Source of the DNA: Arachidicoccus sp.
GTDB taxonomy: Bacteria > Bacteroidota > Bacteroidia > Chitinophagales > Chitinophagaceae
Reading direction: 5' to 3'
DNA: 64,000 nt
NCBI GenBank assembly: GCA_028283605.1
Contig: JAPWKH010000002.1
Coordinates: 1 to 64,000, forward strand
Position numbers and translations under genes: made by a program. The notes under the pieces were generated by a model that saw only the letters and a program-made list of their open reading frames with translations, was not told where the DNA came from and did no database searches. Positions 14,871-61,473 of this stretch are shown in pieces (positions within the stretch are counted from its first letter, which is position 1; each line of letters starts with the position of its first letter).

Positions 14871-15935
14871 TTATTTCCCGCTTAAAAAATCATTTATAAT
14901 TTTCGGAAATGCATATTGCCTTATCTCTTTTTTATCGATCCAAGAAGAATGCATTATGCTTGCCGGCTTTTTATCCAAAAAGATTTCTATAAATACGGCC
15001 TTTATAGTCTGATGAGTCAACTGCTGGGAATAAACATGCGATATATTTATCTTGGAAGGAATAACGGAAAACTGATTATTACAGAAATCGGTAACAGAAT
15101 CTTCGCCCCAATGAGGTTTATTATCTGTTTCCAATAAATAAAATTCATGCAGATTTTGCCATATATCATTAGCGGTTCGTTGATGAATAAAATATTTATC
15201 TTTTACGCGCAATACAAACCATGTAAAATGACGTGTTTTCTTTTGCAATACTTTCTCTTTTACAGGCAAAAGGCTTACGCGCCCGCTCAGATATGCATTG
15301 CAAATAGTATTCATGCAACAAACAGCGCACTGTGGATTTACCGGCTTACAAACCGTAGCGCCAAAGTCCATAATTGCCTGATTATACAAGTTGGCTTTCC
15401 CCGGCAGCAGATTTTTTTCAGCCAGTTCTGTAAATACATTCTTTCCTTCATTTGAATCAATGGCCGTTTCCACTCCATATATGCGCGACAATACGCGAAA
15501 TACATTGCCATCTACCACTGCATAAGGCTGATTGTATGCAAATGAACAAATTGCAGAGGCAGTATAACTTCCCACTCCTTTAAGCATTAAAACATCTTCG
15601 TAATTATCAGGAAAAATACCATTTAAATTATAGCAAATATACCTTGCCGTAAACAGAAGATTTTTACAACGGTTGTAATACCCCAAACCTTCCCAAAGCT
15701 TAAAAACTTCATTATCATCGGCTTTTGCAAGATCGCAAACGGAGGGAAAACGCCGAAGAATTTTTTCGTAATAATTTCTTCCCTGTTCAACTCTTGTCTG
15801 CTGAAGAATTACTTCGCTTAGCCAAATTTTATAAGGATCTTTTTCGCCCTTCCAGGGCATTTCCCTTTTATTAAAATGCTTATGCCAGTGTAGTAATTTA
15901 TGTGAAAATGAATTTCCGGTTTGCGAAGTAAGCAT
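14871..15935 (-). CDS. mutY: A/G-specific adenine DNA glycosylase
   Basis: This 354-residue base-excision-repair enzyme removes adenine mispaired with 8-oxoguanine. Glu41 in SEVILQQTRVEQ is the catalytic acid. The helix-hairpin-helix (MLKGVGSYTASA) leads to Asp142 in VVDGNVFRVLSR. The 4Fe-4S ligands are Cys196, Cys203, Cys206 and Cys212 with the standard C-x6-C-x2-C-x5-C spacing. The C-terminal ~110 residues form the NUDIX-like domain that recognises 8-oxoG. It is complete and of normal length. The genes around it are unrelated. Confidence 0.97.
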   Translation of the reverse strand: MLTSQTGNSFSHKLLHWHKHFNKREMPWKGEKDPYKIWLSEVILQQTRVEQGRNYYEKILRRFPSVCDLAKADDNEVFKLWEGLGYYNRCKNLLFTARYICYNLNGIFPDNYEDVLMLKGVGSYTASAICSFAYNQPYAVVDGNVFRVLSRIYGVETAIDSNEGKNVFTELAEKNLLPGKANLYNQAIMDFGATVCKPVNPQCAVCCMNTICNAYLSGRVSLLPVKEKVLQKKTRHFTWFVLRVKDKYFIHQRTANDIWQNLHEFYLLETDNKPHWGEDSVTDFCNNQFSVIPSKINISHVYSQQLTHQTIKAVFIEIFLDKKPASIMHSSWIDKKEIRQYAFPKIINDFLSGK

Positions 15936-15950
15936 GATTCAAAGATAACT

Positions 15951-16839
15951 TTATTCCTGAAGCATTTTGTCTTGTGGTTTGCGCGTAATACTGCGTGTTT
16001 GTAAGATTACCGCAAGCAATATGCAAATAAATCCTATGTAAAAAACGCTTGATAAATCCTTGTTTTCTTTATATAATATGAAAGCCAGAATAATACCATA
16101 TACAGGTTCTAACGTAAGTGTAATGTTTGCCGTAAAGGCGCTTATGGATTTCAGCGAATCTGTATAAAGCACAAAAGTAAATATAGTGCATACCCATGCT
16201 AAAAGCAACAACCACAGCCAATCAAACTTTTGAGGAATTATATTTTCCGCAGGAAATAAATGATGGTACACCGGCATCAATAAACTCAGCCCTATAAAAC
16301 CGCCCGTTAACTGATACAACACAAAAGTTTCCGGCTTGTAATCATTGACTATTCTTTTGCTGAAAAGAGAAACCAAAACACTCAGCAGCATAGCAGCAAG
16401 ACCTATATAAACGCCGGCAGAAAAGTGCATATTCCCATAGTACACAAGTACAATCCCTGCTATTGTGAGAGTGCCATATAATAATTCTTTGGGATTAATT
16501 TTTTTCCCGAAAAACATCGGCTCCAATATTGCCGAGGCAAACGCAGAAGAAGAAAGGCAGGTAAGCGAAATGGATACATTGCTGTATTTTATGCTTCCAT
16601 AAAAGCATAGCCAGTGCAATGCCAGTAATACACCAATGCCACCTATAGAAAGAAATTGCCTTATGGTTAATTTTTCTAGTTTTTTTCAAGAGAGAAAAGA
16701 ATATCCACATAGAGATCACCGTGAGCAACATTCGCCACCAGACCAGCCATCCTTCATTCAGGCTTATAGCGCGCCCAAGCACGCCGGTAAATCCCCAGAG
16801 AAAAACCGCAATGTTCACTTTTATCAAAGCCGGCTTCAT
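15951..16839 (-). pseudogene. EamA/DMT-family transporter with a frameshift
   Basis: The product would be a ten-helix drug/metabolite-type exporter of about 295 residues. The N-terminal piece begins MKPALIKVNIAVFLWGFTGVLG at 16839 (the in-frame ATG at 16893 is less likely). It loses frame at a 7-A run (plus-strand T7 at 16680-16686). Dropping one A joins SLLKK to LEKLTIRQFLSIGGIGVLLALHWLCFYGSI, and the rest reads on to the stop at 15951 with the second EamA half (LEPVYGIILAFILYKE). The homopolymer makes a base-call error, slippage or a real mutation all possible. Confidence 0.8.
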
Positions 16840-16914
16840 TTCAACTAATTTTATGCAAAGAAAAGCTATGCGGATGATAGATATGAAAATCAAAATTTTG
16901 AAACCGGCCGCAAG

Positions 16915-17799
16915 CTAATTATTGTTTAATACATATTTCCACTCATTTCTATAATGCAGCGGTGTTTTACCGGACATCTCTTTGAATTTTTTGGTAAAAT
17001 GGCTGTAATTATTAAAGCCGCATTCATAGCAAATATCTGAAACGCCGAGATTACTTTCGTGTAAAAGTTTCGCAGCGTGTATAAGCCGGTATTCATTTAC
17101 AAATTCCACAAAAGTTTTTCTTGTTACTTTTTTAAAATACTTGCAAAAAGCTGATGGCGTCATGCTTATATGGCCGGCAATCTCATCAAGGGATATTTGT
17201 TGCCTGAAGTTTTCTTTGACATAATTAAATACACTATTGATCCTGTTATGATCTTCCACTTTGGCTTCCAGCCAAAAACCCGCGGCATTAAGTATTGTAT
17301 AATTTTCGGAAACCGCCATCATACGAAGTACATCCAGCAATCCAATCAGTTTGCCGCAATTATCATGCTCTTCAATACTTTCAATTTTAGCTCCGATAAT
17401 TCGCTTGTCTTCTCCATGAAAAATTATTCCGCCTTTTGCATTTTCAAAAAGTTGCTTTACGGATTTCATTTCCGGAATATTAAACAACCCTGCCCCGAAA
17501 GCATCAATCTTCCATTGTATTACCGTTTCGCTTTGGTCTTTTTTTAATGTTCCCGTAAACCCGCAATGCGGAAGATTTGAACCTACTAATATTAAATCTC
17601 CGTTTCTGTAGTGCGATAGATGGCTTCCTATTTGTCTTTTACCGGCGCCATTATTAATATATACCAATTCCAGTTCGGGATGATAATGCCAAACCGATTC
17701 ATAATCGTTTTGCAGATCTTCCGTATATTTTTTATACACAAAGGAATTTCCAAAACCGGGTTCGATATTTTCGAAAATAGGATTAAAAGAATATTTCAT
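16915..17799 (-). CDS. AraC-family transcriptional regulator
   Basis: This 294-residue regulator has an N-terminal cupin-type sensor (WHYHPELELVYINNG near residue 37, GDLILVGSNLPHCG near residue 67). The C-terminal ~100 residues hold two helix-turn-helix motifs (ISLDEIAGHISMTPSAFCKYFKKVT and VSDICYECGFNNYSHFTKKFKEMSGKTP). The layout matches sugar- or metabolite-sensing AraC proteins of Bacteroidota. The downstream EamA transporter gene on the same strand, about 75 bases away, may be its target. The ligand is unknown. Confidence 0.92.
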   Translation of the reverse strand: MKYSFNPIFENIEPGFGNSFVYKKYTEDLQNDYESVWHYHPELELVYINNGAGKRQIGSHLSHYRNGDLILVGSNLPHCGFTGTLKKDQSETVIQWKIDAFGAGLFNIPEMKSVKQLFENAKGGIIFHGEDKRIIGAKIESIEEHDNCGKLIGLLDVLRMMAVSENYTILNAAGFWLEAKVEDHNRINSVFNYVKENFRQQISLDEIAGHISMTPSAFCKYFKKVTRKTFVEFVNEYRLIHAAKLLHESNLGVSDICYECGFNNYSHFTKKFKEMSGKTPLHYRNEWKYVLNNN

Positions 17800-18021
17800 T
17801 ACAACAAATTATATAATTAAATAATGTATAATAAATTTCATATTAATTGATAATATGATTATTTATAGCAATAATGAACAAATTAATTTTTATTTAATAC
17901 AAATTATATACTAACAATTGAATGTATTATTTTATTTGATTTTAGTAAAAACTAACAGTTACAGGACAAAATTACATAGTTTTTGGAATATTCTTTTGTT
18001 TTTTTACGATAAATACGGTTC

Positions 18022-18029
18022 TACATTTG
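18022..18029 (+). promoter_or_regulatory. -7 box of the 18068 gene
   Basis: TACATTTG matches TAnnTTTG. A TTTG at 17995-17998 may serve as the -33 element, although the 23-base spacing is a little long. Transcription would start near 18035. Confidence 0.55.
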
Positions 18030-18067
18030 TATTGTCAATTTAGGTAATAATAATAAAATTTAAGATC

Positions 18068-18655
18068 ATGAAAAATTTAGTAATTTATTTGATGTTGGTA
18101 ATTGCAGGTTCTTTTACCGCTTCAGCAGCAAATGAGAAAATGATCGATTACACAGTAAGTGTTACAAAAAATGAAGGAGAAGTTGTAACAATCGATTTTA
18201 ATAAAGCAGAAAATATGCAAGTTTCTATAATGGATTATAACGGCAATATTTTATGCAATTATACTGATATAAAAAATTCGCGTTCGTTCGATTTCACAAA
18301 TTTACCCGCAGGTAAGTATTTTATTAAAGTGGAAAATGACCACTATGCAGAAACTACACTTGTATCTAAAAATGATACAACTATAAATGTGAAGAACAAT
18401 TATAAACTTGTTTTAAAACCAATCTTTAAAAAAGAAGAAAACAAAATGCAGGTTTATGTTCCAAACCCGTCAAATTCACATGTAGAAATCGATGTTTATG
18501 ATAAAGACAATTATTTGGTTTATTCTTATAAAGATAATCAAAGCGTAATAAATAAAGTATTTGATTTCTCAAAATCTCCTTACGGAAAATATACTATCAA
18601 CATTAATTCTGCAAATGATGATATCAATTACAGCACAGATTTTGAACGTAAATAA
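18068..18655 (+). CDS. Small secreted protein with two similar beta domains
   Basis: This 195-residue protein has a clear signal peptide (MKNLVIYLMLVIAGSFTASAA). Two halves, about residues 25-110 and 112-193, share the pattern xVxVxDxxxxxxYxYxDxxxxxxxFDFxxxPxGKYxIxI (compare FDFTNLPAGKYFIKVEN with FDFSKSPYGKYTININ). The fold resembles the DUF3244 or T9SS-tail type of beta sandwich, but there is no typical sorting-signal tail. It is probably periplasmic or surface-exposed. It has its own promoter and a terminator, so it is monocistronic. Function is unknown. Confidence 0.75.
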   Translation: MKNLVIYLMLVIAGSFTASAANEKMIDYTVSVTKNEGEVVTIDFNKAENMQVSIMDYNGNILCNYTDIKNSRSFDFTNLPAGKYFIKVENDHYAETTLVSKNDTTINVKNNYKLVLKPIFKKEENKMQVYVPNPSNSHVEIDVYDKDNYLVYSYKDNQSVINKVFDFSKSPYGKYTININSANDDINYSTDFERK

Positions 18656-51129: not shown

Positions 51130-52707
51130 TTATTGTTTTATAAAAGAAACCGATTGAATAGCTCCATTTTTTTTAATTATTCTTAAATAATAAATTCCTG
51201 CACTAAGCCGCGATACATCGTATTGCAACGTGCTTATAGGACTAAAACGCATCACTTCATTTCCGTTCAATGTTATTACGCGCAAGGAAGTAATATCTTC
51301 TGTTTTCAAATTTCTAATTGTAATAATATTTCGGGCAGGATTAGGAGATATTGTTATTCCGTTTGTTTGTGTTATTGTATTTACTTGAACAATTTGGCTT
51401 AAGATTGATTTGCCATCAATATCTACCTCATTCAAGCGATAATAACTTATGCCGTTCAGTGGATGTGAATCGTCAAAATTATAACTGTGCCCGCCTGCGG
51501 TATTAGAAGCCGACACATTCCCAATTGATTCAAAACTTGTACCATCTGCGCTTCTTTCAATATCGAAATGAGATGTATTTATTTCATTTTCTGTTTTCCA
51601 AAGAAGCGTTATTTTATCCCTATTTATTTGCGCAATGAATGATAAAAGATGCAACGGCGTAACACTGCCTACAACAAAATTATTGGCAGAAGTAATACTC
51701 CAATCGTCCAAGCTGCGTATATATAAAACATGGTTCCCATCTGCTAAAGAAGATGTATTGGCATTGAAACTAATGTTGTTCAAATTCACACCCGGCGTGA
51801 TGCTTACGGAATTTGCGTTACCAAATCCGGGGTCGGTATCGAAGAAATATTCAACATACTTAATATTGCCGGGCGTGTGTGGCGCGCCGGGGTAAGCAGG
51901 GTCAATATCAATTGTAAAATCTTTTTCATTTACAATACTCCATTTACCGTCTGCGCTGCGCGTACGGAGATATGCACGATGCACGCCATTGCTCAAGCCT
52001 AATGTATTGATGCTTGCAGTAATATTACTCAAATTTAATCCCGGTGTAATGCTGATGGGAGTTGCGTTTCCAAAGCCGGGGTCGGCATCTACAAAATATT
52101 CTGCAGCTGTAATGTTTTGTGCTGCCGTAGGCGCAGTAGGATAAGCGGGATCGTAATCAACAATAAAGCTTTGTACGTTGGTAATGCTCCATTGTCCGTA
52201 TGCATTTTTACTGCGTAAATAGATATGATGCATACCATTGCTTAAACTTGATGTATTAATACTTGCCACAACATTATTTAAGTCCAATCCCTGTGTAATG
52301 CTGATAGATGTTGCGTTTCCAAAGCCGGGGTCTGCATCAATAAAATATTCTGCGGCTGTAATGTTTTGTGCTGCCGCAGGTGCGGCGGGGTAATCGGGAT
52401 TATAATCAACGATAAAGCTTTGTACGTTGGTAATACTCCATTGTCCGTTTGCATTTTTGCTGCGTAAATAGATACGATGCACACCATTGCTTAAGCCTGA
52501 TGTATTAATAGATGCGCTCACATTGCTCAAATTCAAACCTGCTGTAGCACTGATGGATGTTGCATTTCCAAAGCCGGGGTCTGCATCAATAAAATATTCT
52601 GCGGCTATAATATTGGATGCAGATGGCGAGGATGGATAATCGGGATCATCTTGTGCCGATGCTTTTATAATAAAAAGCAGCAGCATAACCAATAAATATT
52701 TTTTCAT
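51130..52707 (-). CDS. T9SS cargo protein with four tandem ~83-residue repeats
   Basis: This 525-residue exported protein has a signal peptide (MKKYLLVMLLLFIIKASAQ). Three repeats of 83 residues and a fourth partial one follow, each starting near AAEYFIDADPGFGNAT and containing GLxNGxHxxYLRSxxAxGxWSI. The signature DADPGFGNA is nearly invariant. A stalk (LLWKTENEINTSHFDIERSADG) precedes the C-terminal type A sorting domain (SPNPARNIITIRN, LSAGIYYLRII). The protein is probably displayed on the surface by T9SS. It is the last gene of operon B, 47 bases after the gene at 52755. Confidence 0.88.
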   Translation of the reverse strand: MKKYLLVMLLLFIIKASAQDDPDYPSSPSASNIIAAEYFIDADPGFGNATSISATAGLNLSNVSASINTSGLSNGVHRIYLRSKNANGQWSITNVQSFIVDYNPDYPAAPAAAQNITAAEYFIDADPGFGNATSISITQGLDLNNVVASINTSSLSNGMHHIYLRSKNAYGQWSITNVQSFIVDYDPAYPTAPTAAQNITAAEYFVDADPGFGNATPISITPGLNLSNITASINTLGLSNGVHRAYLRTRSADGKWSIVNEKDFTIDIDPAYPGAPHTPGNIKYVEYFFDTDPGFGNANSVSITPGVNLNNISFNANTSSLADGNHVLYIRSLDDWSITSANNFVVGSVTPLHLLSFIAQINRDKITLLWKTENEINTSHFDIERSADGTSFESIGNVSASNTAGGHSYNFDDSHPLNGISYYRLNEVDIDGKSILSQIVQVNTITQTNGITISPNPARNIITIRNLKTEDITSLRVITLNGNEVMRFSPISTLQYDVSRLSAGIYYLRIIKKNGAIQSVSFIKQ

Positions 52708-52754: not shown

Positions 52755-53813
52755 TTATGGATTACTCTTGGTGCTGAATGTAACAGTCATGCTTGTTGCA
52801 CCTGTAGGAATACTTGCTGGAACAGTTAAAGTGTAAATAGTGGGTATTGGCGGAATACCGGAAAGTATGTATGGGTCCGGACCGCCGAATGCTCCGCAAT
52901 CGGGTGTGGTTACAGAACCAACAGTAAGCCCTGCACTAATAGCGGGAGAGCTTGTTGCCAAGCGCCATTGTCCGTCTGTGCTGTTGCTGGTTATGCCTTG
53001 AAATAGCTGAGCATCATTGTAATTCCAGCTGTTGCCGTTTGTACCTTGATAGCTTGAAAAACTTGACGGTTGCCCTTCAACAAGATTATTTTTTGCTACA
53101 GTATTGGTAAGTGTAATTGTTGTATTAACAATAATATTATTCGCAAAATAACCATTGTACACATTTACAGAGCCCCTGAATACATTGTTGCGCACTACAT
53201 TGCCTGCATTGGCGGCATTACTCAAATCGACAGCACTTGTGAAAATATTATTTTCCACATCCCAGTTATGCCTGCTTGCTGCGGAAGCATTTATGTTGTT
53301 TATATAGCATTTATTTATCTTCCATCCGTCATTCGTATTACTTGCCGATTGTGTGCCGCAACACTGGTCGTAAAAGCTTGAGTTGGCAATATAACAGCGT
53401 GTAATGGTAATATTGTCTGCTCCGTAGCCTTGATTTTGACGATTAGCTATATATAAAACTTGTAACCCATCAATAATCGAACCTGAACCGAGCGTATCAA
53501 TGTTAATCCCACCCAATTGTGCGGCGTTCGTGTTCGCCTGCAAGCCTGCATTGCTGTTGCTTCCGCTAAGAAAATAACCTGTTCCGAGAAGCACAAGGCG
53601 TTTGGTTAAAACTGCATCGCCATAGCTTGTGGCGCTTGCTTCAAAGTGAAGCGTATCGCCATTTACTACCGAAGCGCTTGTTACTGCAGCGTTGAAAGAA
53701 GTAAAATCGGCGATAACGCCGGCATTGTTGTTTACGCGCCAGATTTTTGCATTGGCGTTTGTGCATAAGCCTGTTGCTGCAACAAGCATAATGAAGAGAA
53801 GTTGTTGTTTCAT
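52755..53813 (-). CDS. Secreted right-handed beta-helix-like protein
   Basis: This 352-residue exported protein has a signal peptide (MKQQLLFIMLVAATGLCTNANA). Many short strand-turn units with Asn ladders follow (ITITRCYIANSSFYDQ, WKINKCYINNINAS, VVRNNVFRGSVNVYNGYFANNIIVN), typical of parallel beta-helix proteins of the pectate-lyase-like type. No catalytic site is evident. It lacks a sorting tail but ends in a Thr-rich strand (TLTVPASIPTGATSMTVTF). It is the first gene of operon B, which carries the shared dyad upstream (53866-53883). Confidence 0.75.
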   Translation of the reverse strand: MKQQLLFIMLVAATGLCTNANAKIWRVNNNAGVIADFTSFNAAVTSASVVNGDTLHFEASATSYGDAVLTKRLVLLGTGYFLSGSNSNAGLQANTNAAQLGGINIDTLGSGSIIDGLQVLYIANRQNQGYGADNITITRCYIANSSFYDQCCGTQSASNTNDGWKINKCYINNINASAASRHNWDVENNIFTSAVDLSNAANAGNVVRNNVFRGSVNVYNGYFANNIIVNTTITLTNTVAKNNLVEGQPSSFSSYQGTNGNSWNYNDAQLFQGITSNSTDGQWRLATSSPAISAGLTVGSVTTPDCGAFGGPDPYILSGIPPIPTIYTLTVPASIPTGATSMTVTFSTKSNP

Positions 53814-53865
53814 ACGATAAGATTTTTTGTTTAAGCAAAACTGAAAACACTTGCAGACAATTCCT

Positions 53866-53883
53866 ATCCCTGAAAAAAGGGAT
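53866..53883 (-). promoter_or_regulatory. Shared dyad element, copy upstream of operon B
   Basis: ATCCC-N8-GGGAT starts 52 bases upstream of the operon B start codon. With one flanking base left and three right it matches the copy at 58705-58722 at 20 of 22 positions. A TTGCA (plus-strand reading) lies at identical spacing beside both. Confidence 0.65.
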
Positions 53884-53884
53884 T

Positions 53885-54533
53885 TTAATTATTCCCGTTT
53901 TGTACCAAAGGAGCGGCTGATGTATCGCTTGGTATTGCGGCAGCCGGCTGATTTTCTTGCGGCGGTGCGCTGTCTCCTTTCTTTTTTGATTTTTTTCCTT
54001 TTTTACAGGATGAAAAACCTTGTCAAGAATTTTATCTGTTTTTGCGGAAGCCTCAGTATCACTTGGGCCATTGGTACTTGCAAATATAACTTCCGGCGTG
54101 CCTGCCGGTTCATTAAAATCTTTACCGGCATTGGGATAATACATATCTACATTTACTGTTGCGGCATGTTCTTTGTTGTCGCTGCCAGTATATATTTTTA
54201 CTGTTATGCCAGTAATATAGTACGCATTATAGCAGGTAAGAACTCCCAAAGTAGATTCCTGATGAGCGGGCCATCCGCATAAATTTGTTGTGGTTGAAGA
54301 TTGTTGCGAAGCAGTTGCCGCCTTGGTTGAAGGCGTTGAGCTTGTAGTGGTTTTCACGCTGATGTTTGACGCAGGCGCCGATTCAATCACAGATGCAGCC
54401 GGCTTAACTGTAACGGCAGATTTGGAAGTGATTACAGTTTGTTTTTTATTGAAGAAGGTGTTACAGTTTGTACCTGTGCATTTACCGAGATACTTGCTGC
54501 AATGAGTGCTGTAAGAAGAAATAAATTTTTCAT
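53885..54533 (-). pseudogene. Secreted Ser/Thr-rich protein with two frameshifts
   Basis: The first frame gives a signal peptide (MKNLFLLTALIAASISVNAQ) and stops after 33 codons. Adding one A at the A6 run (plus-strand T6, 54442-54447) joins it to TVITSKSAVTVKPAASVIESAP, which runs through NLCGWPAHQESTLGVLTCYNAYYITGITVKIYTG and TPEVIFASTNGPSD. Adding one T near 54013-54017 then gives FSSCKKGKKSKKKGDSAPPQENQPAAA and a stop at 53885 (VQNGNN). The corrected product is about 215 residues. Function is unknown. It is the last gene of operon A. Confidence 0.7.
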
Positions 54534-54602
54534 AAGGAATTTTATTTTTAGAAATTAAGAATATTGATTTTTTGATAAAATATGTGTTGTATTTCTTTTA
54601 TT

Positions 54603-56441
54603 CTACTTGCTTATCGGTGTATCACTTTTGATATAAATATTGCTGAGGCCGATGCTTGCGTCTCCTGAATACCATCCATATCTTTTAAATGTATATCCGG
54701 CGGAAAGAACGCTGTTATCTTGCATCACTTGTTTCCCGTTTACAGATACAGCTACTGCCGCGCCTTTAACAGACACGGTAATATGTGTAACTTCATCGTT
54801 TTTTAATTCAGGAATGCCTCCTCTTTCATTCGGTTTTACATAACTGATTTCTTGAAAATTTTTTCCATATTCGATTTCTCCACTTTGTGCTATGGCAAAT
54901 TCAAATCCGTCGCGGTTCACATCGCTCAGGTCTATCTCATTATGTTTCTTCAGGTCATCCTCATAAGTTTCTAATCTAAAAACAAATGACGACCTTTTGT
55001 TGCTGATGTCCTTGCCAAAAATTACATCGTAATTCACTGTAAAGCTGCTTGGGAGTAACTTGGGAAAATCGGGAAAGAAAGTAAATGCACCGGGAATGGA
55101 TATCCATTTGCCGGGCTTCCCGTCAATCGTTTTCAGTGTAGCATTTTTATATTCGTTTCCATCGTGTCCATAAGTATGCCAGCCTGTTGCAGAAAAAGTT
55201 CCGGTAGGATAGCCTTCAAAATCTTCATACAAAATAGTGTAAGGGTCTTTGCGTTTTGCGGCTGTTGTTGCCGATACATTTGCAGGTGCAGCTATGTTGT
55301 TGAAAGATTTTTTTGGTTCATGCAAAGGCGTATAAGCGATACCTCTTACTTTATCAGGATTGGACAGCCAATTATACACATAATCGAAATTGAAATTGCG
55401 TAAAAAGGAATAAGTAAGATATTGATTGCCGTTTTTCATCGTAGAATCTGAAAGGCAGCCTGTTATTTCAGGCAGCGTGATGTACAACCACAACGGCTTA
55501 TCCGTTTTGGATTGGTCAATTACCTGTTGCGTTGCAGATACGAGCGTGTATTTATCGAGTAAGTGCTCTTCCTCGCCATTCATAATACTTCTTGGGTTGA
55601 TGATTGCATGACCATTATCATCATCCAATAACGACAAGCCACCGCTAATTGCCTGCTGATTGTAATATGGCTTTAAACGCTCTTCAGCATCTTTAACATC
55701 GGCAGCAACGTATTGGTCTTTTAAAATGCCGGGATATTTTGCCAACTGTTCATCTATATACTTTACCGCGTCTTTTACTAATACAGGTTTAAATGGCCAT
55801 TCGCCATTTTTGGGAATAACGATTTGTAATTCGGTAATCTGCTTGCCATCGTTGTGATAGTGATGAACATAAGTACGGTAAGGATACAAGTCAGGTTGTA
55901 TTCTTTTATCTATGCCTTCGCCTTTTAATGTAGCATCGCTTTCGTTAAAATTCTCGTTATTGAAGCGCTCTTTTTCTATAAAAAAATACAAGCCTTCGGG
56001 GTTAAATCCTGAAGCATAGTTGCCGGGAAATCCGTTAAAATACATGCTAAGCGTTCCCCACGCTATTTCACAGCAATGTAAATTAATAGCGCCATCTACA
56101 AATCGCGCACTGAAAGCGCCCAAACCAATACCATAACTATGTGTCCCGGCAGCTATTATCTGCCCACTATAATTTTTGCCTAATCCACGCATTACAAGCC
56201 CACGCGGCAGGTACGATTTCATTACCCATTGAGCCAGCGTATCGCCGATTTGCTGTTGCCAAACGGTATAAGTATCATCTGAATACCGGTCTTTTACAGG
56301 CTTATACGTTTGCGCTTTAAATGGCGGCGTCAGATACTTCCACCCTAATACGGAATCTCTGGCAAGTTCTATATCGCTGCGCTGTGAATGAGCAATTGAG
56401 GTTGTAAAAATTGCGATTATTATAAAAAACTTTTTCATCAT
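54603..56441 (-). CDS. Secreted hypothetical protein with C-terminal lectin/LamG-like domain
   Basis: This 612-residue exported protein has a signal peptide (MMKKFFIIIAIFTTSIAHSQ). The N-terminal 370 residues are not recognised. The C-terminal ~200 residues look like a concanavalin-A-type jelly roll (ILYEDFEGYPTGTFSATGW, SSFTVNYDVIFGKD, FVFRLETYED, HITVSVKGAAVAVSVNGKQV, WYSGDASIGLSNIYI), as in LamG or 3-keto-disaccharide-hydrolase domains. It may bind or process glycans at the surface. It lies 29 bases after the TPR gene, in operon A. Confidence 0.75.
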   Translation of the reverse strand: MMKKFFIIIAIFTTSIAHSQRSDIELARDSVLGWKYLTPPFKAQTYKPVKDRYSDDTYTVWQQQIGDTLAQWVMKSYLPRGLVMRGLGKNYSGQIIAAGTHSYGIGLGAFSARFVDGAINLHCCEIAWGTLSMYFNGFPGNYASGFNPEGLYFFIEKERFNNENFNESDATLKGEGIDKRIQPDLYPYRTYVHHYHNDGKQITELQIVIPKNGEWPFKPVLVKDAVKYIDEQLAKYPGILKDQYVAADVKDAEERLKPYYNQQAISGGLSLLDDDNGHAIINPRSIMNGEEEHLLDKYTLVSATQQVIDQSKTDKPLWLYITLPEITGCLSDSTMKNGNQYLTYSFLRNFNFDYVYNWLSNPDKVRGIAYTPLHEPKKSFNNIAAPANVSATTAAKRKDPYTILYEDFEGYPTGTFSATGWHTYGHDGNEYKNATLKTIDGKPGKWISIPGAFTFFPDFPKLLPSSFTVNYDVIFGKDISNKRSSFVFRLETYEDDLKKHNEIDLSDVNRDGFEFAIAQSGEIEYGKNFQEISYVKPNERGGIPELKNDEVTHITVSVKGAAVAVSVNGKQVMQDNSVLSAGYTFKRYGWYSGDASIGLSNIYIKSDTPISK

Positions 56442-56470
56442 TCATTATTTTTATTCATAAGACTAATTGA

Positions 56471-58633
56471 TTAGTTTCCAAAAAATTTGCTTACCATATC
56501 AGGCACTATGCTTGCGCTGTTGAAGCCGCTGCTGAGGCTGATTTCTGCATTTCCTAAATCTACAGACTTACCGATTCCACCGGGACCATTCACGCCTGCG
56601 CTTGCTGTGCCTGAAACAATGAAATCAGTCGGATTTAAGCCGCCGTCTAACTTTAAAGTTAATTTTCCTTCTGCGCCTATTTCGCCGCTTACGCCTTTTC
56701 CGCCGAACTCTTTGGATGCGCCGGCTGTTACGGAAATGCTGTGTGCTGTTGATGCCCATGTTACGGGATCTAATTTTGAATCCCATTCACCTCCGAGGCC
56801 ATTCGGAAATTTGAGTGTAATTTTATTTTCAGTACAGGTCATGTGCCATGTTGATAATTTCGCATCTATCTCAATATTCAGGTTGCAATGGTCGGCTTCC
56901 CATCGTTGCAATTGGCCTGTTATATCAGGCGAGGTAGTCGTATCATTTTCACATGGAGGCACCGCCGGATTTTCAAAACTTGGATACAGGCTGCGGAAAG
57001 CGTCTATTGCTACAAGATATTGGGCATACACCTGATATACTGAACTCGTAGGGTCGTTGGGATAGGCGTAAATTGTTGTCCAAAATGCTTTTTCCTTTAA
57101 CTCCTGGTTCAGCAAATCTTCGGTGTTATGCATATAAGTATTGTTTATTTCAGCCTCACCCGCAGCTTTTGTATTTACCCGTTTTACACTGAGCGTGCAT
57201 TGTTGTTTTTCAAGTTCTTCATCTAATTTATTGTCTGGTTGTCCTTCCCCGGTTTTTAATGTACTTCTTTGCTTTCCGATAGCACTTATTTGTTTATCTA
57301 TGTCTTTTAAAGAGTTTTCTAATTGGATTAGTTTTTCTTGCCTGCTGTCTTTTTCTCTTTGCAAACGAGTGGCATAGGAAGTGCTGTATTGAGGATTGTC
57401 AATATCGCCAAGCATAATGCCTGCAAGTATTTGCAGCGGATGATGATATTTTGACAGAAATGCGATTCCCGCGCCTGTGGTGTTTGTACCGCTGACTGCG
57501 AGATTTCCCATACTTGTTACGTCTTGGCGCATTTGCGTTACATTTTGCTGCCGTTGTTGCTGATATTTAGCCAAAAGTTCGCTTGCTTGTGTGTTTGCTT
57601 CATCTTTCGTAACATCCAGATTTTTGAAAAAAGTTTCTACTTCCGTCCATGTTGCTGCGTATTGAGTGTAAGATGCAGGAATTGCAGGCGGTACAAATCT
57701 TTTGGTAATGGATTGGTCTGTGTAATATTTTTGGAAGCGTGGTCTGATGAAGTCTGCCAAGTTTTTTTCAGGTTCATATTCGTGAAGTATATTTATTTCA
57801 TCCGAGCCTGCGATGGCAGAAGCTATTGCATCTTCGGCATAGCCTGCACATTCAGCCGTATTGCCTTGCTGTTTAGCCATTACAGCAAGCGAATGAGCAG
57901 CTTCAGGATTTTTATCTTTGCTCAATGCCTGCGTTAGAAACGGTTTGGCTTTGTCTGTGTAACCAAGACTAAGATATGCCTGCCCGATATTGTTGAGCAA
58001 GGTTGGACTATTAGGATAAGTTTTTTGTATATAATTTAAAATGGGCAATGCTTTATTGGCATAGCCGCTCATGGTAAGCGCGGCGGCAAAATTGTTGAGC
58101 AAAAGCGCATCATCCGGCGCAGAAGCGCAGGCGTTAATCATCAGATAAATGGCTGCATCAGTGCGTTTTCCCATCCAGAAAGTAAGCGCAGCGTAACCTG
58201 TTTGACGACCTTTGTTGAGGTATTGAGAAACTTTCGCTTTTATGTCGGGGACTAATGCGGCTTCTGCTGTTGTTTTAAACTGATTGATGTATGAAACCAG
58301 TTCGGCTTTGCTTGAGGGAGTTGCAGGAATGGTTTTGGATAATGGCTTGTCAAGTATTCTGTCTGTCTGATAATCTTCGGGATTGCCTTTCATCGAAGCT
58401 GCATTCTGCGTGGCTTGTTGCAGGTTTTTCGTGAGATTGCCCAGACCCATTTTTTCCATTGCCGCTTTGGTTTCGGGGTCTGCATTGTCCATTTGCTTTT
58501 GCAGTTCCTGCATTTGTTGTTGCATATCTTCATTGTCGGACTTTGACTTTTTGTTTTTTTGCTGCGACATGGACATCGCAGGATAGGCAAGTACTATGCA
58601 TATCAAAACCGCGCGGATCAAATACTTTTTCAT
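56471..58633 (-). CDS. Secreted TPR protein, first gene of operon A
   Basis: This 720-residue exported protein has a signal peptide (MKKYLIRAVLICIVLAYPAMSMS). A Gln/Lys-rich coiled-coil comes next (residues 26-60, MQQQMQELQKQMDN). Three to four TPR units follow (about 165-270, including DDALLLNNFAAALTMSGYANKALPIL and SPTLLNNIGQAYLSLGYTDKAKPFL). A second coiled coil (about 425-475) and a C-terminal Gly-rich beta region (GASKEFGGKGVSGEIGAEGKLTLKLDGG) complete it. It may be a scaffold for an envelope complex. The dyad element lies 71 bases upstream. Confidence 0.75.
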   Translation of the reverse strand: MKKYLIRAVLICIVLAYPAMSMSQQKNKKSKSDNEDMQQQMQELQKQMDNADPETKAAMEKMGLGNLTKNLQQATQNAASMKGNPEDYQTDRILDKPLSKTIPATPSSKAELVSYINQFKTTAEAALVPDIKAKVSQYLNKGRQTGYAALTFWMGKRTDAAIYLMINACASAPDDALLLNNFAAALTMSGYANKALPILNYIQKTYPNSPTLLNNIGQAYLSLGYTDKAKPFLTQALSKDKNPEAAHSLAVMAKQQGNTAECAGYAEDAIASAIAGSDEINILHEYEPEKNLADFIRPRFQKYYTDQSITKRFVPPAIPASYTQYAATWTEVETFFKNLDVTKDEANTQASELLAKYQQQRQQNVTQMRQDVTSMGNLAVSGTNTTGAGIAFLSKYHHPLQILAGIMLGDIDNPQYSTSYATRLQREKDSRQEKLIQLENSLKDIDKQISAIGKQRSTLKTGEGQPDNKLDEELEKQQCTLSVKRVNTKAAGEAEINNTYMHNTEDLLNQELKEKAFWTTIYAYPNDPTSSVYQVYAQYLVAIDAFRSLYPSFENPAVPPCENDTTTSPDITGQLQRWEADHCNLNIEIDAKLSTWHMTCTENKITLKFPNGLGGEWDSKLDPVTWASTAHSISVTAGASKEFGGKGVSGEIGAEGKLTLKLDGGLNPTDFIVSGTASAGVNGPGGIGKSVDLGNAEISLSSGFNSASIVPDMVSKFFGN

Positions 58634-58704
58634 ATGGAAAAATCTTTGTTACTTTTTAATAAATTTTAGCGATGTGAAAGTAGAATGCATTGCAATGAGC
58701 TTAT

Positions 58705-58722
58705 ATCCCTTAAAAAGGGGAT
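58705..58722 (-). promoter_or_regulatory. Shared dyad element, copy upstream of operon A
   Basis: ATCCC-N8-GGGAT lies between the divergent operon A and the histidine kinase gene. Downstream on the minus strand, TGCAA at 10 bases and a TACTTTCA box (TAnnTTTG-like) have the same spacing as in operon B (TGCAA, then CAGTTTTG). Confidence 0.65.
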
Positions 58723-58816
58723 TTTTAAATCCGAAAAAATCATGGAAAATGGGGAGAAAGAAATGTATGTCAATAACGTTTTTTTGTAACAAATAAGAAA
58801 GATATTAAATTTAGGA

Positions 58817-60754
58817 ATGAAACCACGATTGCTTATACTACTCATAGCACTGCTGGCGGGCTTATGTGCACGAACACAAATGTTGAACAAGGATAGCTTG
58901 CTAAAACTGCTGCCTGCCGCTAAAAACGACACTAATAGGATTGCGCTATTGCTTAAAATTCAAAAGCTGTATGCCCACCAAAACTTTGACAGCTCTTTTT
59001 ATTACCTGAATACTGCAAATGCGCTTGCAAAGGAATTGAAAACTACAGCATACGCCCGCTTTATCAATACAAGATTTGCCGAATATTACTATAATAACAA
59101 TGATTATAAAAAAGCAATTGAGTATACTATGGCTAATAAAAAAGTTGCAGAAAGTACCAACGATCAAGGACTGCTGGCACAAACTTACAACAATCTTGCA
59201 GCTATTTACAACCACTTTGGTAAATACAAAGATGCCGTTGATTGTGTATTAAAATGCCTGGACTTATCCGAAAAAATGAAAGATAGCACAAGCTTCCCTG
59301 TCCGCTACCTTACTGCATCTGCAACCTATTATTATCTTAAACAGCCGGAGCAATCCATTATTTATGCAAAGCAGGCAGTAAAATTTGGGGGGCAATTTGG
59401 AAACAAATATGTCGTTATGATGGGAATGAATAATATGTCGGCTTCTTATACCGATTTAAATAAATTAGATAGTGCAATTATTATCTTGAAAGAACAACTC
59501 GCGCTTGCCAAAAAAGAAAAAGATATATTAAATACAACCTACTCATTAATTAATCTTTCTTACAATTCTTTCAAAAACGGTAATACGGAAGATTTGGAAA
59601 AATATACGGCAGAACTGAACAAATATGCCGCTCAAATGCCCGACGACAAGGTTATTGCAGAAATACAAAATGCAGAAGCGATGGGTTTGATGATGGAAGG
59701 AAAGTATGATGCAGCGAAAGGCGAATTGGATAGTGGAATTGCAATTGCAAACAAAGAAAGCAGTAGCGAAGCACTGGAAAACTTATATTTTACTTATTCA
59801 AAACTTTATTACGTCCAAAACAAAATAAAAGAAGCAGAGAGTTATAGTTTCAAAAATGATTCTATGAAAAACATTGCTAATCGGAAAGAATTGAGCAGTT
59901 ATGCAGAAGATATTGAAGCAAAATATCAAACCGAAAAAAAAGAAGCACAAATAAAATTTCAACAAGCATCAATAAAACAAAAAACCACGCTTAATTATTT
60001 TCTCATTGGTGGCGCAGTTGCATTGTTGATTATATTGTTACTCATTTATCGCAACTATCATCATCGCCAGCAGTTGCAGCAAGCGCGCATCAATGAACTG
60101 GAAACTGAAAAACAATTTACCGCTACCGAAGCCGTATTAAAAGGCGAAGAACAGGAACGTACAAGGCTTGCGAAAGATTTGCACGATGGACTTGGCGGAA
60201 TGCTCAGCGGTATTAAATACTCATTTCAAAATATGAAAGGCAACTTAATAATGACGCCCAACAATGCACTGGCATTTGAACGCAGCATGGATATGCTGGA
60301 CAGCTCAATACAGGAAATGCGCCGCGTGGCACACAATATGATGCCCGAAGCATTGGTAAAATTCGGGTTGGATACGGCGCTGAAAGATTTTTGTAACGAT
60401 GTAAATCAAAGCGGCGCTTTGCACGTAAATTATTTGTCAATGGGCTTGGACAATGCGGAAATTGAACAAACGACGGCAATTACCATTTATCGTATTGTAC
60501 AGGAATTGCTCAATAATACCATCAAACATGCATCCGCAAAAAATGCCATTGTACAAATTACAAAAACGGGAACAGATATTTCCGTTACCATAGAAGACGA
60601 CGGTAAAGGATTTGATACTGCCGTATTAAAAAGTACAAAAGGTATTGGCTGGAGCAATATACAAAGCCGTATTGATTATCTTAAAGGAAAGCTGGATGTG
60701 CAATCGGGTAAAGGAAAAGGAACTTCTGTATTAATAGAATTACATACTGCGTAA
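58817..60754 (+). CDS. TPR-domain sensor histidine kinase (HisKA_3 type)
   Basis: This 645-residue inner-membrane kinase has a signal peptide (MKPRLLILLIALLAGLCART). Periplasmic TPR repeats cover about residues 40-380, including GLLAQTYNNLAAIYNHFGKYKDAVDCVLKCLDL. A single membrane helix (near 395-415, YFLIGGAVALLIILLLIY) and a coiled coil follow. HisKA_3 contains the phospho-acceptor His456 in LAKDLHDGLGG. HATPase_c has the N box LNNTIKHA and DDGKGFD. It should sense an envelope signal, perhaps a protein, through the TPRs and phosphorylate the response regulator encoded 92 bases downstream. Confidence 0.95.
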   Translation: MKPRLLILLIALLAGLCARTQMLNKDSLLKLLPAAKNDTNRIALLLKIQKLYAHQNFDSSFYYLNTANALAKELKTTAYARFINTRFAEYYYNNNDYKKAIEYTMANKKVAESTNDQGLLAQTYNNLAAIYNHFGKYKDAVDCVLKCLDLSEKMKDSTSFPVRYLTASATYYYLKQPEQSIIYAKQAVKFGGQFGNKYVVMMGMNNMSASYTDLNKLDSAIIILKEQLALAKKEKDILNTTYSLINLSYNSFKNGNTEDLEKYTAELNKYAAQMPDDKVIAEIQNAEAMGLMMEGKYDAAKGELDSGIAIANKESSSEALENLYFTYSKLYYVQNKIKEAESYSFKNDSMKNIANRKELSSYAEDIEAKYQTEKKEAQIKFQQASIKQKTTLNYFLIGGAVALLIILLLIYRNYHHRQQLQQARINELETEKQFTATEAVLKGEEQERTRLAKDLHDGLGGMLSGIKYSFQNMKGNLIMTPNNALAFERSMDMLDSSIQEMRRVAHNMMPEALVKFGLDTALKDFCNDVNQSGALHVNYLSMGLDNAEIEQTTAITIYRIVQELLNNTIKHASAKNAIVQITKTGTDISVTIEDDGKGFDTAVLKSTKGIGWSNIQSRIDYLKGKLDVQSGKGKGTSVLIELHTA

Positions 60755-60846
60755 AATGAGCCAAAAGCATATGCATTCGCACTCAAACGAAATAATTGTT
60801 TTAGCCCGATACATCTGACAATTAAATAAATAATAAAAACAGCAGA

Positions 60847-61473
60847 GTGAAAACAAAAGTATTTATAGTAGATGACCATTATATGATAATAGAAGGTATC
60901 CATTCGCTGTTGCAGAACGAAAAGGAAATAGAATGGTGTGGCCATGCTACAACAGCAGATTCCTGTCTTGCTTTTTTGAAACAACGCCTGCCCGATGTAA
61001 TATTGATGGATATTAATTTGCCCGGCAAAAGCGGTATTGAATTGTGTAAAGAAATAAGGGAAAAATATCCCTCGGTTTTTATAATTGCGCTCAGCACTTT
61101 TAACCAACACAGCTTTATTAGTAAAATGATGGAAAATGGCGCATCGGGGTATATTTTAAAAAATGCCACTCGCGAAGAACTGATGCACGCCATCCATACA
61201 GTACTCAAAGGAAAGGAATACTTAAGCCACGAAGCAGCCTTATCATTAAGAAAGCCCGATGAATCCAATATTGTGCTTACGCGAAGAGAACAAGAAGTGC
61301 TGCAACTGATAGCAGAAGGGCTGACGAATAATGAAGCGGCGCAAAAATTATTTATCAGCACCGCTACCGTAGATACGCATCGTAAAAACTTACTTATGAA
61401 ATTGCATGCGCGCAATACTGCCGAACTTATCAAAAACGCAATATTGCATCACTTACTTGACTTGCACTTATGA
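60847..61473 (+). CDS. NarL/FixJ-type response regulator
   Basis: This 208-residue regulator starts at GTG 60847. The receiver domain has the acidic pair Asp9-Asp10 and phospho-acceptor Asp55 in VILMDINLPG, plus the conserved Lys in GYILKNATREEL. The C-terminal LuxR-type helix-turn-helix is LTRREQEVLQLIAEGLTNNEAAQKLFISTATVDTHRKNLLMKL. It is the partner of the preceding kinase. By position it is the first candidate to bind the dyads at 53866 and 58705, which is inference. Confidence 0.95.
   Translation: MKTKVFIVDDHYMIIEGIHSLLQNEKEIEWCGHATTADSCLAFLKQRLPDVILMDINLPGKSGIELCKEIREKYPSVFIIALSTFNQHSFISKMMENGASGYILKNATREELMHAIHTVLKGKEYLSHEAALSLRKPDESNIVLTRREQEVLQLIAEGLTNNEAAQKLFISTATVDTHRKNLLMKLHARNTAELIKNAILHHLLDLHL

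Follow-up and report, generated by a model that had tools for sequence, protein, structure and literature searches.

FimS-FimR of Porphyromonas gingivalis pairs a sensor kinase carrying tetratricopeptide repeats (TPR) with a response regulator, and together they control a cluster of surface-protein genes; FimR activates the fimA cluster (PMC5706477; papers given by PMC number are cited for excerpts). NarL of Escherichia coli activates from -44.5 at ogt, where its site is an inverted repeat (PMC7419079). In PorX-PorY-SigP, a two-component system of the Bacteroidota controls protein export, with PorXY acting via an extracytoplasmic function (ECF) sigma factor on genes for the secretion machinery (PMC4800418). 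Here we describe a locus that resembles each of these in part. It lies in a 64,000-nucleotide stretch of an Arachidicoccus sp. genome (contig JAPWKH010000002.1, positions 1 to 64,000; hereafter the window). Two operons for exported proteins, A and B, are each preceded by the inverted repeat, or dyad, ATCCC-N8-GGGAT, and next to them lies a divergent operon for a TPR kinase and a NarL-type regulator, with an imperfect third copy of the dyad ahead of it. We consider it very probable that this two-component system reads the dyads and drives operons A and B as well as its own operon.

Like FimS, the window kinase combines a TPR sensor region with HisKA_3/HATPase_c kinase domains, and its residues 43-599 match the NCBIfam FimS model (E 1.4e-11). 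However, its score was 43.4 bits against a curated cut-off of 600, and of the four window operon proteins scanned with Pfam, none hit a fimbrial family; they belong to other Pfam families or to none. The regulator is of the same family as NarL (E 1.4e-28) and, like NarL at ogt, would act from an inverted repeat, here centred at about -43.5. Its putative site differs from the 7-2-7 sites of NarL (two 7-base elements 2 bp apart) in being an 18-bp dyad of the form ATCxx/xxGAT with an 8-bp T-rich centre, and the promoter carries a different sigma-A box (TAnnTTTG, -12 to -5; PMC9723704). The locus shares with PorXY a link to protein export, since one window product has the tail of the type IX secretion system (T9SS); unlike PorXY, it has a NarL-type regulator and sigma-A type boxes ahead of the genes for the exported proteins themselves. 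We read the locus as a FimSR-like system serving a group of exported and probably surface-associated proteins. Literature searches, judged by titles and the starts of abstracts, returned no paper describing the element or the island, and our claim is limited to these searches.

The element and its place in the promoter

The features on which the argument turns are as follows.

53836..53843, minus strand: -7 box of operon B, CAGTTTTG, 22 bp after dyad B
53866..53883, minus strand: dyad B, ATCCCTGAAAAAAGGGAT (minus-strand reading ATCCCTTTTTTCAGGGAT), candidate regulator site of operon B, an exact ATCCC-N8-GGGAT
58675..58682, minus strand: -7 box of operon A, TACTTTCA, 22 bp after dyad A
58705..58722, minus strand: dyad A (proximal), ATCCCTTAAAAAGGGGAT (minus-strand reading ATCCCCTTTTTAAGGGAT), candidate regulator site of operon A, an exact ATCCC-N8-GGGAT
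58739..58756, plus strand: distal imperfect dyad, ATCATGGAAAATGGGGAG, candidate site for the regulator ahead of the kinase/regulator operon
58779..58786, plus strand: candidate -7 box of the kinase/regulator operon, TTTTTTTG, 22 bp after the distal dyad
58817..60754, plus strand: TPR sensor histidine kinase, with TPR_12, HisKA_3 and HATPase_c above Pfam cut-off
60847..61473, plus strand: response regulator of NarL/FixJ type, a receiver (PF00072) and a GerE/LuxR helix-turn-helix (HTH) domain (PF00196)

The two exact dyads had been reported in the initial annotation, together with the observation that the 22-base blocks of the two operons differ at two positions; both statements proved accurate. 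Dyad B starts one base past the stop codon that closes operon A's last gene. Dinucleotide shuffles gave a mean expectation of 0.02 for the window dyads, and none of 100 shuffles reached two. In the 3.59-Mb genome the bare dyad occurs at three places, and because of the third (G000:C13:67969-67986, between two convergent genes and perhaps a terminator) the bare dyad alone says little genome-wide. When the -7 box at 22 bp was included, the only two exact matches were dyads A and B, and the reversed control gave none; the search for scattered copies that had been suggested thus showed that the element is not scattered.

Allowing one mismatch in dyad plus box added 19 sites. Fourteen of them lie wholly within start-to-stop open reading frames (ORFs) of at least 100 aa, a location that is a weak argument, as dyad B itself falls within a spurious 249-aa ORF and both true sites fall within stop-to-stop frames (377 and 97 codons). 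The other five (L054, L056, L060, L063 and L066) include no perfect dyad, and four precede an ORF start. On these counts we rejected a larger regulon in the window genome; a few weak extra sites may still exist elsewhere in it. With up to two mismatches there were 306 matches against 152 in the reversed control, which is too degenerate a pattern to interpret. The imperfect element-like site L060 (G000:C10:366113-366158) lies 52 bases ahead of a small exported-protein ORF and about 2 kb away from C10:368227, the regulator match that ranks second in the genome (40% identical).

Many relatives have two copies of the element in the divergent region, one per facing operon. In 38 of 42 loci the dyad facing the exported operon is followed, at exactly 22 bp, by a TAnTTT-like box, a count made with a box search that slightly favoured 22 bp; shuffling under the same optimising rule averaged 11 of 42 and never exceeded 19, and without optimisation the box was at 22 bp in 34 of 42 loci and at every other distance (12 to 33) in no more than one. 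For the kinase-facing, distal copy, the spacing to T...TTT is 22 bp in 26 of 40 loci and 21 bp in seven. The box consensus in relatives is TAnTTTTAC. The TAnnTTTG-like box first noted in the window is therefore real, and its conserved trait is the 22-bp spacing from GGGAT. TGCAA at +10, which had been taken as a further part of the promoter, did not hold up: it is a coincidence, since only 2 of 142 related elements have it, both of them in the window.

Those 142 elements come from a scan of 76 loci (1.47 Mb), against two in reversed sequence. Because the scan rule required the box, its presence in all of them is not independent evidence; the reversed control is. For 131 of the 142 elements an ORF start falls between -60 and 250 bases from the box, with a peak at 24-30, and nine are inside ORFs. 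By a crude measure, 108 of 124 element-led proteins have a signal peptide, compared with 573 of 1022 background ORFs. The loci include many from related genomes or from the same genome, and rows are not independent.

The sigma-A box TAnnTTTG of F. psychrophilum occupies -12 to -5 (PMC9723704). With the window boxes placed likewise, the dyads would span about -52 to -35. The dyad, at its constant 22 bp ahead of the sigma-A type -7 box, would then sit in the place of the -33 box with its centre at about -43.5, so that activation would be the most likely effect of a bound regulator.

Site type and regulator type

Among relatives, the arms of the dyad differ with the recognition helix of the regulator. 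TVN regulators (N-type) pair with ATCAT/ATGAT arms (or ACGAT, some AGGAT), and TVD/TVE regulators (D/E-type) pair with ATCCx/GGGAT arms (some AGGAT). The window regulator, whose receiver and HTH domains score 93.3 bits (PF00072) and 69.2 bits (PF00196), both over cut-off for a NarL/FixJ-type protein, has the helix TVDTHRKN and is of D-type. Several D-type relatives have ATCATGGAAAAAGGGGA[GT] in the distal dyad. In the divergent promoters, G at position 15 was absent from 23 N rows and present in two, whereas it was present in all 15 D/E rows (Fisher p 3e-9, which overstates independence because N and D/E form one split on the regulator tree). This table holds 40 rows, with L116 dropped (the distal site had been picked), the site of L119 set by hand, L175 siteless and L180 without a type. 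Taking all elements, the N-regulator loci had 72 N-type, five AG, one GC and no GG; the D/E loci had 16 GG, six AG, one TG and one N-type inside a gene. The other 40 of the 142 elements are in loci where the regulator type was not seen (36 N-type, two GG and two AG).

In an alignment with 1a04, the variable N/D/E residue lines up with the lysine of NarL TVKVH, which we take to be K188. We also take it to be the position of K180 in RcsB. Helix alpha-9 of RcsB contacts bases through K180 and S184 (PMC5829831).

The strongest argument for the regulator reading the sites is the mixed ancestry of the window locus. The window kinase clusters with four N-system kinases (support 100/100). The TPR protein of operon A is 36-41% identical over its full length to the TPR proteins of loci L110-L128 and L130, where the regulators, if seen, are all N-type, compared with 24-33% over matched parts to those of D/E loci. 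The lectin-fold protein of the same operon shares 45-52% identity with relatives from 11 loci, with N-type regulators where seen (L110, L123, L127 and L134), and its matches in D/E loci are 22-26%. The regulator, by contrast, falls in the D/E group (support 100/95; 74% to L149), and dyads A and B are both D-type. Because a D-lineage regulator and D-type sites stand amid N-lineage genes, the sites go with the regulator rather than with the kinase or the operon A genes. Operon B is not counted in this argument, its beta-helix family having mostly D-type elements elsewhere. We infer that the regulator was exchanged at the window locus, by recombination or gene replacement. The kinase tree mixes N and D/E types several times. 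As an observation in its own right, the SZAS-9 genome has an N-type island (L141) and a D-type island (L151), each with its own site type, as for two insulated copies.

The elements, their spacing, their conservation with the genes and their covariation with the regulator are evident from sequence. The mechanism that we propose to explain them is that the kinase and the NarL-type regulator (58817-61473) would form a two-component system, and a dimer of the regulator, presumably depending on phosphorylation, would bind directly to the 18-bp dyad, with its outer ATC/GAT, its inner two base pairs set by the helix and its T-rich centre. Two such promoters would drive operon A (TPR, lectin-fold and Ser/Thr-rich proteins) and operon B (beta-helix-like and T9SS repeat proteins). 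A third copy, in the divergent promoter, would serve the kinase/regulator operon itself, which implies autoregulation. Such a sequence-level operator code would make the targets of Bacteroidota TPR kinases and NarL-type regulators predictable by inspection, and two codes tied to one helix residue would be a clean test case for the joint change of regulator and site.

Conservation and rival explanations

The TPR protein has six full-length relatives (38-42% identical) in 147 family genomes; when more distant relatives are counted, matches at E 1e-5 occur in 39 of the 147, the window genome among them. Among named genomes, a scan found 71 loci, spanning Chitinophagaceae, Pedobacter, Cytophagales, Prolixibacteraceae, other Bacteroidales and Flavobacteriia (Lutibacter, Mariniflexile). 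Of six genomes from the genus of the window, one has the TPR gene, so the island is patchy. The expectation that these genes would keep company with the two-component system was borne out: of the 54 loci whose sequence extends 6 kb or more ahead of the first TPR match, 38 have the kinase/regulator pair divergent from the TPR gene, and the operon B pair recurs with the element in L115 and L116, the two named relatives in which it is present. There the beta-helix and repeat genes adjoin as in the window (43-44% and 46-48% identical), each time with an N-type element ahead at 22-bp spacing. Beta-helix homologs occur in 73 of 394 family genomes. A scored element lies upstream in 13 of the 30 best-matching loci, the window's among them, versus none of 90 in-gene stretches.

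An ortholog of the regulator (E 1e-70) is present in 44 of the 147 family genomes. The D-type pattern occurs in 13 genomes, the window's included, and all 13 have the ortholog; 12 of its 15 sites are no more than 10 kb from the regulator gene, the exceptions being those in G106, G034 and G103:C42. The N-type pattern occurs in 19 genomes, 17 of them with the ortholog; in the other two, the dyad is imperfect (G020) or perfect (G139). Reversed controls gave two matches for the N pattern and none for the D pattern. A strict match to either pattern was found in 27 of the 44 genomes with the ortholog. Taken with the matched changes in site and helix, this co-occurrence strengthens the link between element and regulator that had earlier been put forward as an inference.

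Several observations weigh against the regulator reading the sites as proposed. AGGAT arms are found with both regulator types, and the N versus D/E division is, as noted, a single split on the regulator tree. The kinase tree yields only three independent supported pairs (p 0.25); in these the site type is as expected in 2.7 to 2.9 of three, as a mean over random pairings. No divergent pair was found in 16 of the 54 loci with at least 6 kb of room. Five of these (L114, L115, L121, L122 and L166) have a divergent kinase without a regulator match, or are truncated where the stretch ends; L171 combines a divergent kinase with a second kinase and the regulator, these two lying on the opposite strand; in L123 the pair is upstream of the TPR gene and in the same orientation; and L132, L133, L136, L148, L157, L163, L165, L169 and L179 have no kinase or regulator above thresholds. 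No match to either strict pattern was found in 17 of the 44 family genomes with a regulator ortholog, and 17 of the 30 beta-helix loci are without a scored element, some of them having near-threshold sites.

The dyad might instead be read by another regulator, global or of the LuxR type, with the adjacent two-component system a mere neighbour. The genome does have four further regulators of the family at E 1e-10, and the 17 regulator-bearing genomes without a strict match fit such a reader. We nevertheless consider this improbable: the strict patterns are almost confined to genomes with the ortholog (13 of 13 and 17 of 19), the arms track the recognition helix of that very regulator, and the remaining regulators of the genome are at most 40% identical. 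A more serious alternative, if still an unlikely one, accepts that the local regulator binds the dyad and holds that it acts as a repressor of the operons or changes sign with phosphorylation. Polymerase could also be blocked from a site centred near -43, but the fixed 22-bp spacing and the place of the -33 box suit an activator, and NarL activates from nearly this distance at ogt (-44.5; PMC7419079).

A T run follows each dyad on the plus strand, as might be expected of transcription terminators or RNA hairpins. However, no plus-strand gene ends just ahead of the dyads, which lie upstream of the -7 box and hence outside the transcript they precede, and their arms vary with the regulator while the box spacing stays fixed. 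On position and covariation we rejected the terminator or RNA reading, to which we give very little credence. Chance proximity of two similar dyads is the least credible explanation of all. The third genomic bare dyad, which has no downstream gene, is what such chance would produce, but the shuffle expectation is 0.02 and the element is kept in many genera ahead of homologous genes. We therefore retain activation by the local TPR-kinase/NarL system as by far the likeliest account.

The exported proteins and the wider family

Operons A and B lie on the minus strand, divergent from the kinase/regulator operon. They contain the following genes.

56471..58633, minus strand: operon A gene 1, exported TPR protein, 720 aa (Pfam and predicted structure)
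54603..56441, minus strand: operon A gene 2, exported lectin-fold protein, 612 aa, without Pfam match (Foldseek)
53885..54533, minus strand: operon A last gene, Ser/Thr-rich, with two frame breaks that leave signal peptide, body and end in three frames
52755..53813, minus strand: operon B gene 1, exported beta-helix-like protein, without Pfam match (fold label from the initial annotation)
51130..52707, minus strand: operon B gene 2, T9SS-tailed repeat protein (PF18962, TIGR04183)

The gene calls made earlier (TPR, lectin-like, frameshifted Ser/Thr-rich, beta-helix and T9SS repeat) all stand on re-examination. The predicted structure of the TPR protein has a helical TPR body and a low-confidence beta C-terminus, in a model of moderate quality (predicted local distance difference test, pLDDT, 64; predicted template modelling score, pTM, 0.52). 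That of the lectin-fold protein was also moderate (pLDDT 65, pTM 0.49), and its C-terminal beta-sandwich is the sole part that we used. In Foldseek this part matched CBM66, galectin and L-type lectin folds with target-normalised TM scores of about 0.5-0.7. Clostridial neurotoxin binding domains were among the matches merely via the common lectin-like fold, and we rejected kinship with toxins; no sequence link to a toxin was seen with Pfam or in a profile search of PDB sequences. The only matches of the lectin-fold family in the latter search were short ones to repeat proteins, which we judged spurious. Two loci have lectin-fold and TPR proteins fused as one long ORF (L141 12008-15904, 1298 aa; L134 13484-17359, 1291 aa), which suggests that both act together.

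The frame breaks of the Ser/Thr-rich gene sit in A-rich stretches, and its relative in L153 is intact and longer (284 aa). The window copy looks decayed, unless assembly errors are responsible. The type IX sorting domain of the repeat protein scored above both cut-offs (PF18962, 34.6 bits against 27; TIGR04183, 39.2 against 23). For the other proteins the label "surface" is tentative, and the set may act jointly at the cell surface. Five of the six locus proteins have no PADLOC match to a known anti-phage defence protein at E 0.001; the regulator has weak matches only, to the CARF3 and PDC-M60B models, over its HTH and receiver parts.

The work defines a set of exported protein families that is apparently co-regulated, with a lectin-fold/TPR pair fused in some genomes. 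A broader proposal, one that we would sooner doubt than accept, is that the locus belongs to a Bacteroidota family of mobile or mosaic exported-protein islands with FimSR-like systems and many identical fixed-spacing promoters. Two residue-set operator codes (ATCAT and ATCCx/GGGAT) would insulate co-resident copies, regulator exchange would rewire operators, the window locus being a case of this, and the TPR, lectin-fold, beta-helix and repeat proteins would make up one new extracellular assembly. Separately, L035 has kinase and regulator in one open frame of 883 aa (15596-18247), possibly a hybrid protein or an effect of assembly.

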